From a virus, in the IMG/VR virus record IMGVR_UViG_3300046820_000297, positions 1 through 64,000 of that record: a DNA stretch of 64,000 bases; one strand, written 5' to 3'. Below are positions 49,727 to 56,379 of this stretch, piece by piece. Both the position numbers and the translations under genes were made by a program. Within the stretch, counting starts at the first letter, position 1, and every line of letters begins with the position of its first letter. The notes under the pieces are model-generated. The model did not search any database and was not told the DNA's origin. It saw only the letters and a list, made by a program, of their open reading frames with translations.

Positions 49727-50855
49727 ATGGTTTAATGAATTCTTCGTAATTATACTTTGGTGTAATCTCTACAGTAACATGAGTTAGATCTAGTTTTCTG
49801 CTAGCACGACCTGCTTCCTCATCAACTATATCATTCATGAGTTTGTAAAAGATATCATGTGTTAGCTGTCCACGTTTTGCAAGATGTGTTAGTATTCCAC
49901 TATCGTCTAGATCTTCTAGATAATTCCAGCTTACTAGTGACTTAAATAGTTTAGCTTCTTTAAGTCTGTTGTTGTCAGAATTATCTATGCGGTAACCATG
50001 TTTCTTAGCTAGTCTCCACACATGATAGATAGAATCTTTAGTGTTACAGTTGAATAGAATCTTAGATGCTGTAAAGTGATCCTCTTTAGAAGGACTACTA
50101 AGCATCATATCTAAACTATTATACATATCATCATCTAGTACTACTTGATTACCACAAGTCTCAATAAAATGTTCTTGTGATATTACTGGTACTTTCTTAG
50201 ATAGAATATTATATACAAGAGTAAGACTTTCTGCATTGAGTGCCCACTGTGTAATAGGATCTTCTATGTTATCAGTATAAGCTGATCTACCGTAGTTAGA
50301 AGCTAATGCTCTCGTAACTAAAATAGTATCATCCTGTTTTAACATGTCATGATAATCTACACCAGTAGCAGGTAATACTCTAAAAGTATTCTTATTCTTT
50401 ATAAAATCTACAAGGGTTTGGTTATATACTACCTTACTAGAATAGTGTTCACCTACAATACATCCATTAGGATACTGATTTCTATTGATGTCATAGTTTG
50501 ATGCCTCTAAAATATTATGTTCAGTACCTAGAATAACAGTAGCTTTTTCTATATTACTAGTTACGGTCATACCAGATGTTTTACAATACTCTTTGATCTT
50601 ATAACTAGGTATCTTAGAGTCTGGTAATAAATAAATCTTATCTCCAGAAACAGGAGTATAAGCATCACCCCCTTTCAGGAGTGATGCTATTTTATTCCTA
50701 CTTTCCATAGAGATCTTATACAACTCTGTTACACCAATACCACTAGAGAAATCATCAGGACTAAACATGTAAACATATTTAAACGATCCTTCTACAAATC
50801 TTAGTTTGCTTGGTAAAGTAGAGTCTTCTAAAATACTACTAATGTTGTTTTGCAT
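49704..50855 (-). CDS. Paralogue B: possible BRCT-like domain plus helical domain
   Basis: 383 aa, a diverged tandem copy of the 391-aa protein. The BRCT-like region is at about 72-111 (DKIYLLPDSKIPSYKIKEYC, then GMTVTSNIEKATVILG). The helical domain begins at 239-258 with VLDDDMYNSLDMMLSSPSKE and continues with FNCNTKDSIYHVWRLAKKHG, matching ANCNYKKSAVYLTQICRLYG in paralogue A. It overlaps the MoxR exon 2 stop by one base and paralogue A by 23 bp, so all are probably co-translated. Role unknown; a substrate adaptor for the AAA+/VWA pair is one possibility. Confidence 0.6.
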   Translation of the reverse strand: MQNNISSILEDSTLPSKLRFVEGSFKYVYMFSPDDFSSGIGVTELYKISMESRNKIASLLKGGDAYTPVSGDKIYLLPDSKIPSYKIKEYCKTSGMTVTSNIEKATVILGTEHNILEASNYDINRNQYPNGCIVGEHYSSKVVYNQTLVDFIKNKNTFRVLPATGVDYHDMLKQDDTILVTRALASNYGRSAYTDNIEDPITQWALNAESLTLVYNILSKKVPVISQEHFIETCGNQVVLDDDMYNSLDMMLSSPSKEDHFTASKILFNCNTKDSIYHVWRLAKKHGYRIDNSDNNRLKEAKLFKSLVSWNYLEDLDDSGILTHLAKRGQLTHDIFYKLMNDIVDEEAGRASRKLDLTHVTVEITPKYNYEEFIKPYGQQNSN

Positions 50856-51604
50856 TATTTTACAGTCATTTTGATCACCTCTGGGTTCAACATTAACTTA
50901 GACCACTTCTGCTTGTTACCATTAAGGATACCCTTAACGATATAATACTTAAGGTCATTGCTGAAGATATCATCAGTAATCAAGTTAGTAACACGATCAA
51001 TTAATGGTTGAGCTACTGTATTATTATTACTATAGTGCACTGCATAGTTGATAATACGAGTAGTCATCAAGCTAGCGATATCTGCACGGTAGTTGTTACC
51101 TTCACCAATACAAGACTTAAGTTGTCCTTTGATATATTCCCAACTGTTGTTAGTCAATACATCTTTAGGAGTTACCAACTTATCAAGCTTGTTGTTGATG
51201 AACATAGTAAACATAGTAGCAAACTCACCACCTACAGAACCTTCACCAATCATCTGAATAATAGGAAGGCTTTCTTCAAAACTATCTAGACTAGAGATAG
51301 AGTTAAAGAATGTAGTGAAGCTACGAGCATTAGCACGCTTCTCTGTCAACTCTGGGTGCAACAACATAAAGTTAATACAACGAGTGTCGATCTCATTCTC
51401 TTCTGCCCATCGCGCCCAACAGTCGATATCAAACTTCAAGTAACTTGTGATGAAACGAGTCTTTTGCGCTTCGTCAAGAGATGTTACCTGATAGTCACCA
51501 TTATCTGGATTACTAGTTAAGATAACAGTCCAACCTTTTGGTAGCTTCCATGAGATATATTCTTGACGATCAATGATTTCCATAGTAGCTTGCATAAAAC
51601 GTGA
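50855..51604 (-). CDS. MoxR-type AAA+ ATPase, exon 2
   Basis: 249 codons plus stop. The first residues, SRFMQATMEIIDRQEYISWK, continue the Walker B region of exon 1, giving LLILDDYTRAD-SRFMQATME, the expected MoxR/AAA+ layout. A sensor-1-like TSNPD follows (WTVILTSNPDNGDY) and an Arg in QKTRF could be the arginine finger. An ATG that straddles the splice site makes this segment look like a separate gene, but it lacks Walker A and B. The joined product is 395 aa. It is followed directly by paralogue B. Confidence 0.85.
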   Translation of the reverse strand, partial: SRFMQATMEIIDRQEYISWKLPKGWTVILTSNPDNGDYQVTSLDEAQKTRFITSYLKFDIDCWARWAEENEIDTRCINFMLLHPELTEKRANARSFTTFFNSISSLDSFEESLPIIQMIGEGSVGGEFATMFTMFINNKLDKLVTPKDVLTNNSWEYIKGQLKSCIGEGNNYRADIASLMTTRIINYAVHYSNNNTVAQPLIDRVTNLITDDIFSNDLKYYIVKGILNGNKQKWSKLMLNPEVIKMTVK

Positions 51605-51846
51605 CATTATGTTAACCTATAGGCTCTTTATCCTATAGTTCTGTACTTTTATTATTAGATTATATGTACAGTTCAGACTATATCATCACACATTTCTGTG
51701 TGTTCCGCGCTCTTGGTACTTTACTGACCGTTCTGGTCTCCATGTACTAGTCGTTGCACTTTACTTATATCCCTATAAGTCTTAGCTCAGGATTGTCTAT
51801 CTCTAGATTTTCCCTGAATTCACGGAATTTATTGCGGACTCAACGT

Positions 51847-52596
51847 TTATGCTTTTTTCCATCTATAACCCCCAGCAGTTAAGTCTTTAGATATTGCTCT
51901 ATTGATATTAGAGATACCTAGTTCTGTACTAGCTTCTGTTATAGACTTCCATTTTTTGATAAAGATATTATCAGTAGTATATTGTAATATAGGTTCTAAC
52001 TTATATTTTCTATCTCTAGTAAAAACTAGATCAACTTTATTATAAGACCATGCATAACCTCCTGCAGAAGTTTGTTTGCTATTACATACAGCTTTAATAC
52101 TATTAATACTTTTAGCATTAATAGATTTAGCGGCAGCTGTAAGAGATTCAAAACTTTCTAAATACTCACCTTTATCAAGTGAATATTTGTGTACTGCTTT
52201 AAGATTATGAGGTTTTAAACCATTTGTGTAAGCTTTCTTTTTAGCTACACTTATCCTTTGTTTATATATAGAATCTCTAACTAATGTTTGAGGATCTAGT
52301 ATATGATTTATATAAGGATTAAGTGCATTAATATAATAAGCTTCTCTTTCAATTAAAATATCATCAGAGCATTCTTCTATAATAGTAAAGTAAATTTGAT
52401 TTTTACCATACTTATTATATAAGTTTTGCATTGTTCTATTATGATGTTTTGAATTGTCAAGAGACCACAAATGATGTTTTAATCTATGACCGATATTACA
52501 AGAACTACCAATGTATTCTTTATCATTAATTTTAATTTTGTAGATTCCTACACACTTTAATGCAGTCTTTAATGTTTCTGTTGTTAAATTAACCAT
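51847..52596 (-). CDS. GIY-YIG homing endonuclease in the group I intron
   Basis: 249 aa. The catalytic domain is at residues 15-105: GIY at 17-19, YIG at 28-30, Arg38 in GHRLKHHL, and the catalytic-type Glu in the EECSDDILIEREAYYINAL region. The C-terminal half has DNA-binding repeats of the NUMOD1/IENR1 type (AVHKYSLDKGEYLESFESLT, AAAKSI; later QYTTDNIFIKKWKSITEAST, AGGYRWKK). It would cut intron-less alleles of the MoxR-type gene and so spread the intron. A host-type promoter stands immediately upstream, so expression need not depend on read-through from the ATPase gene. Confidence 0.9.
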   Translation of the reverse strand: MVNLTTETLKTALKCVGIYKIKINDKEYIGSSCNIGHRLKHHLWSLDNSKHHNRTMQNLYNKYGKNQIYFTIIEECSDDILIEREAYYINALNPYINHILDPQTLVRDSIYKQRISVAKKKAYTNGLKPHNLKAVHKYSLDKGEYLESFESLTAAAKSINAKSINSIKAVCNSKQTSAGGYAWSYNKVDLVFTRDRKYKLEPILQYTTDNIFIKKWKSITEASTELGISNINRAISKDLTAGGYRWKKA

Positions 52597-52600
52597 ATTA

Positions 52601-52631
52601 CAAAGATAGTTAATTTATGCACATTAAACAA
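52601..52631 (-). promoter_or_regulatory. Bacteroidota-type promoter of the homing endonuclease
   Basis: In the minus strand, TTG (52631-52629) and TATCTTTG (52608-52601) are separated by 20 nt. This matches the Bacteroidota sigma consensus TTTG-N19-21-TAnnTTTG, except that the first T of TTTG is a C. The ATG at 52596 begins 4 nt after the -7 element, so the transcript would be leaderless or nearly so. Confidence 0.6.
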
Positions 52632-52651
52632 GTAGACTGCATATTTTATTA

Positions 52652-53089
52652 ATCCGCACGTGTGTAATCATCTAAGATAAGAAGACCATTCTCACCTTTA
52701 CCTTGAATCCACTCTGGTTGTGCATGCGTCATACGCTTCTCACCAGTAGGAACATACTTCTGCTGAATATACAATGGCATGATGTTCTCAGGAATCCATT
52801 TAGCTACACGCTTACCATCGTCAGTAGTCTTTGCTACTTCAAATTCCTTAATAGGAAAACCTACTAAGTCACCCAACTCCTCGAGCTGACTCAAGGATAA
52901 TTTTACAAAGTGAAGGTTGTTCTCATTAGCATACTGTAAGATAGTACTTGTCTTACCGATACCTGCTTCACCTTCGATGTTTACAGCTACAGGAATCTTT
53001 CCATTCTCCTGTAAGTACTTGTTATTATTTACAACGTGTGTTACGAATTGCTTTAACTCATCTGTGTTTAACTGAACTTGCTTTGCCAT
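52652..53089 (-). CDS. MoxR-type AAA+ ATPase, exon 1
   Basis: 146 codons. Walker A is GEAGIGKT (40-47) and Walker B is LLILDD (136-141), followed by YTRAD. Translation reaches a stop only because the intron begins TAATAA; splicing joins it in frame to exon 2 (50855-51604). MoxR-type ATPases usually work with a VWA protein to remodel or insert cofactors into other complexes, and a VWA protein is encoded 13 bp upstream. The intron sits exactly within the most conserved active-site region, a typical homing target. Confidence 0.88.
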
Positions 53090-53102: not shown

Positions 53103-54296
53103 TTAATTCAACTTGATTTGTGGTCCAGGAAGACCTTTGTTAATTTCACCACGGGTAGAGATTACCCACAACATTTTACCTTTTGGTTTTACATCAGTGC
53201 TACACTCACCATCTGTGAGATAGAATAAGCACGTATACTTTCTTTGATTCTCATTGTAATACTCTAACACAGGGTCAAAGTCAGTACCACCTCTACCATG
53301 AAGAGTAATATCTTCATTGGGTTTGTACTTCTCAATACTGCGAATGTTAGTATCACATTGTAAGATAGTTACCTCACTACCAGTTTTATGTATGTGATGT
53401 ATCTCGTTAAGGAACTCCTTAACTTCTTTATCACTTACAGAACCACTGGTATCGATAGCAACCAACAAGTGTCTCTTGTTTTTAATCTTGAGACCGGGAT
53501 TCTCTTCGAATCTCTTGTTGTCTTTACGTCTTAGTTTCTTAGTGAATACTTCTTTAGCACCACCTGCAAATCTTCTGACATAACTACGCCAGTCAAACTT
53601 CGGTGGTTCTATATGACGTAGTCTTTCTAAGATACCTTTAAACTCTCCGGGAATAGTACCCCTAGATTTTTCTACAGAATCTGCAATTTCTTTTAAGATG
53701 TGTGCGGTCTGAGACTCAAGTAGTTTCTTCTCTGCTTCAGATAGATCTTCAAAGTCTTTCCAAGTACCATGATCAGGAACCATAGTACCACTACCATGTT
53801 GTTCACCGTCATCCATACCTGTCATATCAGAGATCTTTCCACCAGAACCAGATTGCTCTTCTTGTTCTTTAGCTTCCATCAAGAGTTTGTAATACTCTCT
53901 ACAACCTGCTTTAGGTGGTAGATTATATTCAGCAAATGACTCTAGAGTACAACCACCTTCAGGTAAATCTTCTGCATCAATGTACTGATTAATCTCAATG
54001 TCCATAGCAATGTTTGCTACTTTCTTATTTGGGAATTCATCTTGACACTGGATGTGAAAGAAACCTATATGCAATAACTCATGCTTCAATAGACCTCTCT
54101 TGTGATTATCACTAAGAGAGTTCCAGAAGTCTTCGTTAATAGTAAGTTGGAAGTTAACACCATTCTTACTTACACCAGCAGTAGGAACACGTTTGTCCCA
54201 TTGCTTATTCAAACTTAGTAGAAGGAGACCATAGAATGGTTCCTTCAACATAAGTTCTTTGCTAGCTCTAGCTAGACTGTCATGATTGTTTAGCAT
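53103..54296 (-). CDS. VWA-domain protein with metallopeptidase-like N-terminal domain
   Basis: 397 aa. The N-terminal domain has HELLH (72-76), then a second potential ligand region (NIAMDIEINQ), as in the DUF2201-type putative metallopeptidases. A charged Gly-rich linker spans about 140-220. The C-terminal VWA-like domain has the MIDAS motif DTSGSVS (from Asp282), then GGTDFD and YLTDGE. MoxR ATPases and VWA proteins typically act as a pair, and here they are adjacent. Its start overlaps the stop region of the 161-aa paralogue by 17 bp. Peptidase activity is unproven, and the target of the pair is unknown. Confidence 0.8.
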   Translation of the reverse strand: MLNNHDSLARASKELMLKEPFYGLLLLSLNKQWDKRVPTAGVSKNGVNFQLTINEDFWNSLSDNHKRGLLKHELLHIGFFHIQCQDEFPNKKVANIAMDIEINQYIDAEDLPEGGCTLESFAEYNLPPKAGCREYYKLLMEAKEQEEQSGSGGKISDMTGMDDGEQHGSGTMVPDHGTWKDFEDLSEAEKKLLESQTAHILKEIADSVEKSRGTIPGEFKGILERLRHIEPPKFDWRSYVRRFAGGAKEVFTKKLRRKDNKRFEENPGLKIKNKRHLLVAIDTSGSVSDKEVKEFLNEIHHIHKTGSEVTILQCDTNIRSIEKYKPNEDITLHGRGGTDFDPVLEYYNENQRKYTCLFYLTDGECSTDVKPKGKMLWVISTRGEINKGLPGPQIKLN

Positions 54297-55463: not shown

Positions 55464-56336
55464 TTAAGTTTTAAGTTCCAAGTATTTTTTATACTTTCTA
55501 TCTATATACATATGATCTACAGGATTTCCATATAATGCTTCTATTACAGGCATATACATTTTACCTACAAAGTTTATTGAATAAACATCTATAGATGATT
55601 TAATCTTATAAGGTTTAACTTTAATAGATTTGTGTAAAACAAACTCACCAAACTCCTTAAAAGAATCAATTGTATTTTTTGTACCAACTAAAGATACTCC
55701 GTATACAGGATACTTTCTATTGTATTTGAATATACACCCATCTCCATCTAAAAATCCTCTCCAAAAGTGAGAATTTTTTAAATAGATTTCAGGAACTACG
55801 TAATCTTTAGTTTTATTCTTTATTACACCTCTTTCTTCAAAAAATTTTCTAAAACTAGGATCAGATATAGTTAACCTAACTTGATTCTGCTCTGTAGATT
55901 TAGATCTTACTATACTATAAATAGTACCTGTGTAATCAAAGTAACTACTTATTTTAAGAAGTATGTTTTGGTCAATACTTTTTAAGCTAATAGATATTCC
56001 GGACTTTTCATTTGAACCATCTGCTGCATATAATCCAGCTATATAAGCTGTTACATCATTATCTACAAGTTTATCCGGGTTAATCGTATATCTTCTGTTA
56101 GTTAAACCTGTATTCTTTACACTTTCTTTTTGTAAACAACCACAGGATCTAGTTTTTGTCTTGTTTAAAGAAGAAAAGTCTGTAGATATAACTTTGCCAC
56201 AATCACATTTACATTTAATATAATAAGCACCCCATTTATTTTTATGGGACAGTTCTATTACCTGTAGTCTACCGATTTTAGGTAGTGCTCTTAACATATC
56301 TTTGTATGTTTTATACATTCCCGTTTGTGTTCTCAT
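55464..56336 (-). CDS. Free-standing LAGLIDADG homing endonuclease with zinc-ribbon-like N-terminus
   Basis: 290 aa from the ATG at 56336; a TTG five codons upstream is possible but less likely. Two LAGLIDADG-like motifs are present: AYIAGLYAADGSN and FWRGFLDGDGCIF. The acidic residues at their ends would bind the catalytic metals, giving a monomeric two-repeat enzyme. The N-terminal domain (KCKCDCGK ... RSCGCLQKES) is a Cys-rich module common on AP2/HNH-type phage homing enzymes. It does not interrupt any gene: both neighbours look complete and no group I core is seen, so it is an intergenic mobile gene. Confidence 0.8.
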   Translation of the reverse strand: MRTQTGMYKTYKDMLRALPKIGRLQVIELSHKNKWGAYYIKCKCDCGKVISTDFSSLNKTKTRSCGCLQKESVKNTGLTNRRYTINPDKLVDNDVTAYIAGLYAADGSNEKSGISISLKSIDQNILLKISSYFDYTGTIYSIVRSKSTEQNQVRLTISDPSFRKFFEERGVIKNKTKDYVVPEIYLKNSHFWRGFLDGDGCIFKYNRKYPVYGVSLVGTKNTIDSFKEFGEFVLHKSIKVKPYKIKSSIDVYSINFVGKMYMPVIEALYGNPVDHMYIDRKYKKYLELKT

Positions 56337-56379
56337 ATATACAATATACAATATATTATACTACATACCTAATATATTT

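Follow-up and report, generated by a model that had tools for sequence, protein, structure and literature searches.

The 64,000-nucleotide (nt) window analysed here, positions 1 to 64,000 of the IMG/VR virus record IMGVR_UViG_3300046820_000297, contains two open reading frames (ORFs) that look like separate genes. Are they two genes, or the halves of one ATPase gene, and what lies between them? A sequence-only reading had proposed a MoxR-type AAA+ gene split at Walker B by a group I intron. Comparison with viral relatives makes it highly likely, for the explanation taken as a whole, that a mobile group I intron carrying a GIY-YIG homing endonuclease gene (HEG) is inserted in a phage MoxR-like AAA+ gene. 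The earlier proposal did not mention this HEG, which lies at 51847-52596 within the intron and whose codons just before the GIY motif are complementary to the exon that precedes the intron. The gene and its insert are arranged as follows.

52652..53089, minus strand: exon 1 of the AAA+ gene, 438 nt and 146 codons, with Walker A GEAGIGKT and Walker B LLILDD; contiguous homologues exist
51605..52651, minus strand: group I intron, 1047 nt, opening with an in-frame stop codon TAA and closing with ATG
51847..52596, minus strand: HEG in the P1 loop, encoding 249 amino acids (aa) with GIY-YIG and NUMOD1 domains
50855..51604, minus strand: exon 2 of the AAA+ gene, 750 nt including the stop codon, 249 codons plus stop

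Joining the exons produces a single 395-aa frame, LLILDDYTRAD-SRFMQATME, and bears out the lengths, frame and coordinates proposed for the two halves of one ATPase. Both halves match PHROG 1297 (ATPase) over complementary ranges, and the intron site lies just after the Walker B codons of the phage MoxR-like AAA+ gene. Exon 1 ends in GCGGAT, the in-frame TAA comes directly after it, and the G of the closing ATG is the last intron base. Taken by itself, the window would allow the boundary to slide by 1 nt, since the intron and exon 2 both begin with T, but relatives with C as the first exon-2 base settle this ambiguity and fix the boundary where it had been placed.

A search of IMG/VR with the joined protein returned 582 relatives, of which the best 80 were kept. 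The sequence-only reading had named relatives with the same two ORFs and no contiguous version as evidence against itself; the best 80 of the 582 are contiguous, with no stop across the junction (a few end at a contig edge). The nearest, L002, is 99% identical in amino acids and 95.9% identical in DNA over 5.9 kb, and the intron is absent from it exactly at 52652/51604. A degenerate junction pattern identified at least 120 contiguous genes, which points to intronless alleles as the majority. No second copy of the ATPase gene was found in the 71,833-bp record, which holds the split copy only. The warning that a two-protein annotation misses the enzyme was well placed: there is one ATPase gene with a contiguous 395-aa version in near-identical phages. 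Annotation would give two fragments and an endonuclease for what is really one enzyme, here and likewise in at least 70 other viral contigs.

The group I identity of the insert is established by Rfam model RF00028 together with the covariation of the core helices. The covariance-model search that had been suggested for 51605-52651 gives a match at 51664-51890 of 74.8 bits (gathering threshold 50, E 3.8e-17), the only one in the window and the only one in the 71,833-bp record. The elements of the intron RNA are listed below.

51664..51890, minus strand: RF00028 match, core P3-P9, from the covariance model and covariation
52652..52657, minus strand: P1 exon strand, GCGGAT
51834..51839, minus strand: GTCCGC, the internal guide sequence at intron nt 813-818, which lies some 810 nt away from the 5' splice site
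51840..51848, minus strand: P10 intron strand AAACG-T-TGA with one bulged T, sharing two bases with the end of the HEG stop codon
51596..51604, minus strand: P10 exon strand TCACGTTTT, of which the first 8 nt are paired

The U at the exon end, the G at the intron end and a guide for GCGGAT, all claimed at the outset, are present, and P1 takes the form GCGGAU/GUCCGC with a terminal U.G. A hand-drawn structure comprising P3, P4, P5, P6a, P7, P7.1, P7.2, P8, P9, P9.1 and P10 was tested on 26 distinct introns. Over the core and P10, 98.8% of cells are paired and 33 of 62 pairs show two-sided changes; none of 500 shuffles reaches any of these measures, and slid partners are 28-45% paired. All core helices are paired in the window, including P7.1 and P7.2, which are presumably typical of subgroup IA. 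P10 forms 8 base pairs (bp) with one bulge, and covaries, in 10 of 11 distinct exon/guide combinations; its mean is 16.3, against 10.0 (standard deviation (sd) 1.6) for re-dealt partners, with 4 of 5000 as high. The exon 2 of the window begins with TCACGTTTT where CACCGCTTT is common, and its guide is altered to match. The Ala codon before the splice site (-6 to -4) is GCG in 58 of 58 intron-bearing loci and in 2 of 81 intronless ones (32 of 32 against 1 of 50 by distinct context), and its synonymous G pairs with the guide. The pairing of P1, P10 and the core, along with this codon bias, strongly supports splicing, and on such comparative grounds the intron would almost certainly splice and restore the ATPase. 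On the other side of the balance, P10 is broken in one of the 11 combinations (L104), and RF00028 missed the same-site introns L137, L120, L369, L319 and L320.

The same intron recurs widely at this site. The exact exon-intron junction pattern of the window has no match in viral contigs, and a relaxed pattern matched 55 of them. The HEG as query found 64 loci, 59 of which (L082-L140) carry it in the same gene at the same site, with both exons in view in 53, exon 1 only in five and exon 2 only in one. A profile led by the L138 HEG added 11 loci (L314-L320, L355, L367-L369); two of these HEGs are 94% and nine 43-50% identical to that of L138, and the exact intron boundary is seen in nine of the 11. 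In total, 70 other IMG/VR loci have the intron at this site, and near-duplicate contigs reduce the 54 complete introns, window included, to 36 distinct sequences. Another 14 HEG relatives lie outside the ATPase gene (L377-L386, L142-L145); nine that were scanned contain no group I match at E <= 0.01, and L142 has one about 1.7 kb away from its HEG match. The HEG profile gave 29 pattern matches in genome contigs, none a relative. In a phage collection, tblastn with exon 1 alone, blastn with 6.2 kb and tblastn with PolB revealed no close relative, and the DNA polymerase of the window is at most 37% identical to the best phages listed.

Several members of the family depart from the common form. 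The L120 intron is 1523 nt long, with an extra 476-bp insert in the P4 strand that holds a LAGLIDADG-like ORF (motif LVGIIDGEGCF, recognised by eye), which gives this one intron two endonuclease genes. In L367 (919-2427; L368 by tblastn) the Walker A codons (GDAGL/GKTS) hold another group I intron, which has a GIY-YIG HEG of its own; the ATPase gene is split twice, both ATP-binding motifs being interrupted. A double tblastn match in L320 was considered as an exon duplication and rejected, as translation shows a longer insert. In the window, core positions 51748-51833 are 76-84% identical in DNA to stretches in phages of Vibrio, Acinetobacter, Pseudomonas, Escherichia and Staphylococcus (best 20 of 48 records).

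How did the intron come to be in this phage? The HEG is intact in reading frame and scores 32.6 bits for GIY-YIG (cut-off 22.6) and 27.3 for NUMOD1 (cut-off 22.8). It sits between the 5' splice site and the guide, with its stop codon 7 nt from GTCCGC, and so occupies the P1 loop. A tree of 110 ATPase proteins, 29 intron-bearing and 81 intronless ones chosen for being nearest to the window, was built with the codons near the site excluded and requires at least 14 changes of intron state, at least 9 of them forced by supported branches. Measured against the window, HEG identity is 75.5-88.0% and ATPase identity 54.4-65.2% in 26 of 28 loci; the exceptions are L137 and L138, with HEGs 58.9% and 48.8% identical. 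The flanks of the intron also differ from the rest of the gene.

51563..52684, minus strand: co-conversion-like tract, 75 exon nt, -33 to +42 around the intron

Window and L002 show 21 mismatches in this 75-nt tract, which was chosen after looking, against 218 in the remaining ~5.85 kb, and outside the tract the two proteins are the same over the 357 columns compared. This combination indicates that the intron arrived recently with donor flanks, from which come the G of P1, the bases of P10 and the exon arm of the exon-HEG helix described below. A history of homing can therefore be proposed with high confidence. A recent acquisition with a 75-nt tract, set against a 96%-identical intronless phage, amounts to a natural homing experiment that is repeatable in vitro. 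At another locus, L141 (4959-6879), the ATPase gene has no intron and is immediately preceded by a free-standing GIY-YIG HEG (32% identical). In the target of this gene the 3' flank, CACCGCTTTATGCAAGC, is of the intron type, but the bases ahead of that flank are GCAGAT; the intron may have been lost there, or homing may have occurred without an intron.

P1 and P10 are not the only places where exon and intron match. RNAalifold, applied to 28 distinct 5' regions, pairs exon positions -16 to -9 with intron nt 97-104, just before GIY, and this helix forms the base of a longer predicted hairpin.

52660..52667, minus strand: exon arm of the helix, TTACACAC, exon nt -16 to -9
52548..52555, minus strand: GTGTGTAG, the arm contributed by the HEG codons that precede GIY, intron nt 97-104
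52548..52667, minus strand: predicted 5' hairpin, enclosing the 5' splice site, the candidate promoter and the HEG start
52601..52608, minus strand: TATCTTTG, a candidate -7 box just upstream of the HEG ATG, also lying in the hairpin apex

The exon arm, which consists of host codons, varies as TTATACTC, TTACACAC, TTACACGA, CTTTACAC and CTATACGC, and the HEG arm tracks it with GAGTATAG, GTGTGTAG, TCGTGTAG, GTGTAAAG and GCGTGTAG. All eight positions pair in 10 of 12 distinct combinations (L138 not scored), with a mean of 7.83 of 8 paired against 6.76 (sd 0.21) for re-dealt partners, a value reached in 0 of 10000 trials. The HEG still matches where the exon has changed to Trp codons (L318, CTGGAACA/TGTTCCAG; L320, CTGGAATC/GATTCCAG), and the match is 7 bp in L319 and L355 and 9 bp in L369. 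A position-free score over 31 distinct rows gives 7.56 against 5.48 (sd 0.22), 0 of 5000. The match ends at -8 and -17. On the intron tree, the informative contrasts at -14, -13, -10 and -9 all run in the same direction, with 0 opposite. Further upstream, exon block -23 to -19, which hardly varies, pairs, over two G/A oppositions, with the Ile/Tyr codons of GIY. At GIY the choice of codons is nearly uniform (GGA in 39 of 42, ATC in 38 of 42), a bias inflated by ancestry, since conservation extends over all HEG codons; strong codon selection there was considered and rejected when a per-column control left the effect modest.

The hairpin built on this helix also covaries. Its 36 pairs are 93.0% paired, with two-sided changes in 14, no equal among 500 shuffles and 32-51% pairing in slid versions. 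Of 28 single-sequence folds, 25 join the eight exon positions to the HEG arm and 24 leave the splice-site hexamer GCGGAU unpaired; the window has a folding z-score of -4.68. TATCTTT precedes the HEG in 44 of the 44 introns compared, and TATCTTTG resembles a Bacteroidota-type -7 box, the consensus of which is presumably TAnnTTTG.

A number of observations count against a functional helix and hairpin. L112 and L136 have one mismatch each (7/8), the match is weak in L316, and L138 and L314 show a shifted register or an alternative site. In only 13 of 31 rows does the cognate exon score best or share the top score, although the alternatives include near-identical exons. Independent contrasts number only 1-3 per position and are never significant, and HEG codons are conserved throughout, with a mean major-codon fraction of 0.81 over 96 columns (GIY Gly 0.91, Ile 0.87). 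The HEG AUG is fully paired in only 3 of 28 folds (the window included), partly paired in 24 and unscored in one. The eight folding z-scores span -4.68 to -1.09, the seven besides the window lying between -3.45 and -1.09 and three of them weaker than -2. The RNAalifold consensus keeps the exon-HEG helix yet pairs the 5' splice site with intron nt 24-33, and TATCTTT, being itself paired in the hairpin apex, could be invariant without serving as a promoter. Finally, exon-intron pairing can be harmful, and its conservation, read with that caution, is an argument for function; ribosomes on the upstream exon can prevent exon-intron misfolding, according to the available portion of PMC3984707. The Walker A intron of L367 is without pre-GIY complementarity, and its best exon match, a 10-bp AT-rich stretch elsewhere, is uninterpretable alone.

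The chief competing account of the complementarity is that it acts in DNA, the endonuclease binding a copy of its homing site within its own gene and repressing itself as I-TevI does. The I-TevI operator resembles its homing site at 15 of 20 nt (PMC2988022, in the portion available), most variable exon-HEG pairs are Watson-Crick and hence compatible with DNA, and a co-evolving protein would drag both sites along. An operator sits poorly, however, with the sharp end of the similarity at the helix ends, exon -8 and -17/-18 being at chance, and with U.G wobbles where partners differ (3 distinct rows at -13). The window homing region has 14/20 as its best inverted 20-mer match, the same as the highest value among 100 direct-comparison shuffles, and the direct match is 11/20, under the shuffle mean of 12.0. 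The inner hairpin helices, which join intron to intron, likewise show two-sided changes, and the site falls on the 3' side of the HEG start rather than overlapping the candidate promoter. A DNA operator is thus unlikely, yet it is the alternative to be taken most seriously.

Hitch-hiking would explain the same data without any function: exon tract and intron are co-converted, and linked sites merely share ancestry. The tract does include exon -16 to -9, independent contrasts are few and HEG codons are generally conserved, but ancestry does not create complementarity after each change, and 10 of 12 distinct combinations are fully paired. Pairing holds even after the exon changes to Trp-Asn codons (L318, L319, L320, L355), which leaves hitch-hiking rather improbable. 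That the complementarity functions at the level of RNA is the reading moderately favoured.

Another possibility is that the halves are two proteins made from unspliced RNA, a split ATPase. An intron stop codon occurs within 9 codons in 44 of 44 introns compared, and is immediate in 39; the last intron codon, in frame with exon 2, is ATG in 42 and TTG in 2, which offers an unspliced second half a start codon where splicing demands only G. Early in-frame stops are, however, usual in phage and bacterial group I introns, where they are thought to exclude ribosomes from the intron core (PMC3984707, available portion). The maintenance of P1, P10 and the core by covariation, and a contiguous enzyme as the rule in the best 80 of 582 relatives, make a split ATPase very improbable. 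A dead intron or assembly artefact, to which data from metagenome DNA only would be open, is hardly credible given the intact HEG frame, the fully paired core helices of the window and the presence of the element in 70 other loci from many samples.

The preferred explanation, an RNA-level role for the exon-HEG helix within a mobile self-splicing intron, takes its start from features of the sequences themselves, namely the boundaries, intron identity, intronless alleles, covariation, tract and exon-HEG complementarity. The pre-mRNA would splice itself, through P1 GCGGAU/GUCCGC, an 8-bp P10 with one bulge and the terminal G, to encode the 395-aa ATPase. The endonuclease, if active, would cut intronless alleles, and repair would copy the intron with a short donor exon tract, so that bases matching in P1, P10 and the exon helix would come along. 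As long as the transcript is unspliced, exon-1 positions -16 to -9 probably pair with the HEG codons just before GIY to form the base of the long hairpin, which would leave the 5' splice site in a bulge and involve the HEG start codon in pairing, partly or wholly. A putative promoter inside the intron could express the HEG from a transcript that has no 5' arm. This logic would be T4-like, but the hairpin would close only with the host exon present.

On balance, then, the HEG coding sequence may contain a second covarying exon-binding element, a proposal whose odds are only slightly better than even. Its pre-GIY codons would be kept complementary to the Walker B codons, so that one segment would be constrained as protein, as exon partner and as a gate linking HEG expression and presentation of the 5' splice site to the right host transcript. 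If the helix is real, the coding sequence of a selfish gene is tied to its host gene through base pairing, in an exon-anchored form of the T4 hairpin switch that would explain why such introns must move with their own exon flanks.

The host protein is securely an AAA+ ATPase. A predicted model of the L002 protein (mean pLDDT 83.2, pTM 0.67) gives Z values of 9.7-11.3 against AAA+ structures among the 50 VIA rows listed. The MoxR part of the original label is softer and stands as probable. The AAA_3 profile scores 18.1 bits, below its cut-off of 27, and identity to phage proteins, several of them annotated MoxR-like, is 25-27%. NorQ and CbbQ2 occur among the Foldseek matches (query TM 0.30-0.36), with none among the 50 VIA rows listed. 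The neighbouring gene also bears on the label.

53103..54296, minus strand: metallopeptidase and VWA-like protein (DUF2201_N/DUF2201), the likely partner

The best PHROG of this metallopeptidase-VWA protein is 1314, labelled 'HNH endonuclease', a label with which its Pfam domains disagree. Elsewhere in the window, a LAGLIDADG_3 endonuclease gene at 55464-56351 (minus strand) lies between two complete ORFs with no RF00028 match there, and looks free-standing.

The pair of genes has a precedent in the group 2.2 jumbo phages, which have the same MoxR and metallopeptidase-VWA pair and domain fusion, proposed as a chaperone and co-chaperone of virion assembly (PMC7824862, available portion). The record here is 71.8 kb, in contrast, and the available portion of that source mentions no intron for the jumbo pair. 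The introns of crAss-like phages offer a second likeness, as 51609-51689 matches crAssphage and cr1_1 DNA at 78-80%; no MoxR-gene intron is named in the part of the source available for them. Neither an exon-HEG helix nor a MoxR-gene intron was found in the literature searched, which included part of PMC7886860 and left subscription papers mostly outside.

As an intron, the element is another case of a known type, and the proposed exon-HEG helix is what would be new. The T4 td/I-TevI system, like the T4 nrdB and nrdD introns, is a group I intron in a phage protein gene. The available portion of PMC2988022 describes, for td and nrdD, a GIY-YIG HEG, an in-intron promoter (here a candidate) and start-hiding RNA (here predicted). 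In T4, long transcripts fold into a stable RNA structure that conceals the start of I-TevI, a late intron promoter escapes it, and loss of the hairpin impairs splicing (PMC2988022, same portion). The hairpin of the present intron is a predicted, covarying structure in which the start codon is mostly partly paired. In td, HEG and hairpin lie in the P6 loop (PMC3073962, available portion), whereas here the HEG is in the P1 loop and the hairpin base consists of host-exon codons paired with HEG codons. A further parallel is 'core creep', in which HEG sequence contributes helix bases and needs compensatory changes (PMC3073962, same portion); in this intron, by contrast, the HEG codons would pair with the exon, outside the intron.

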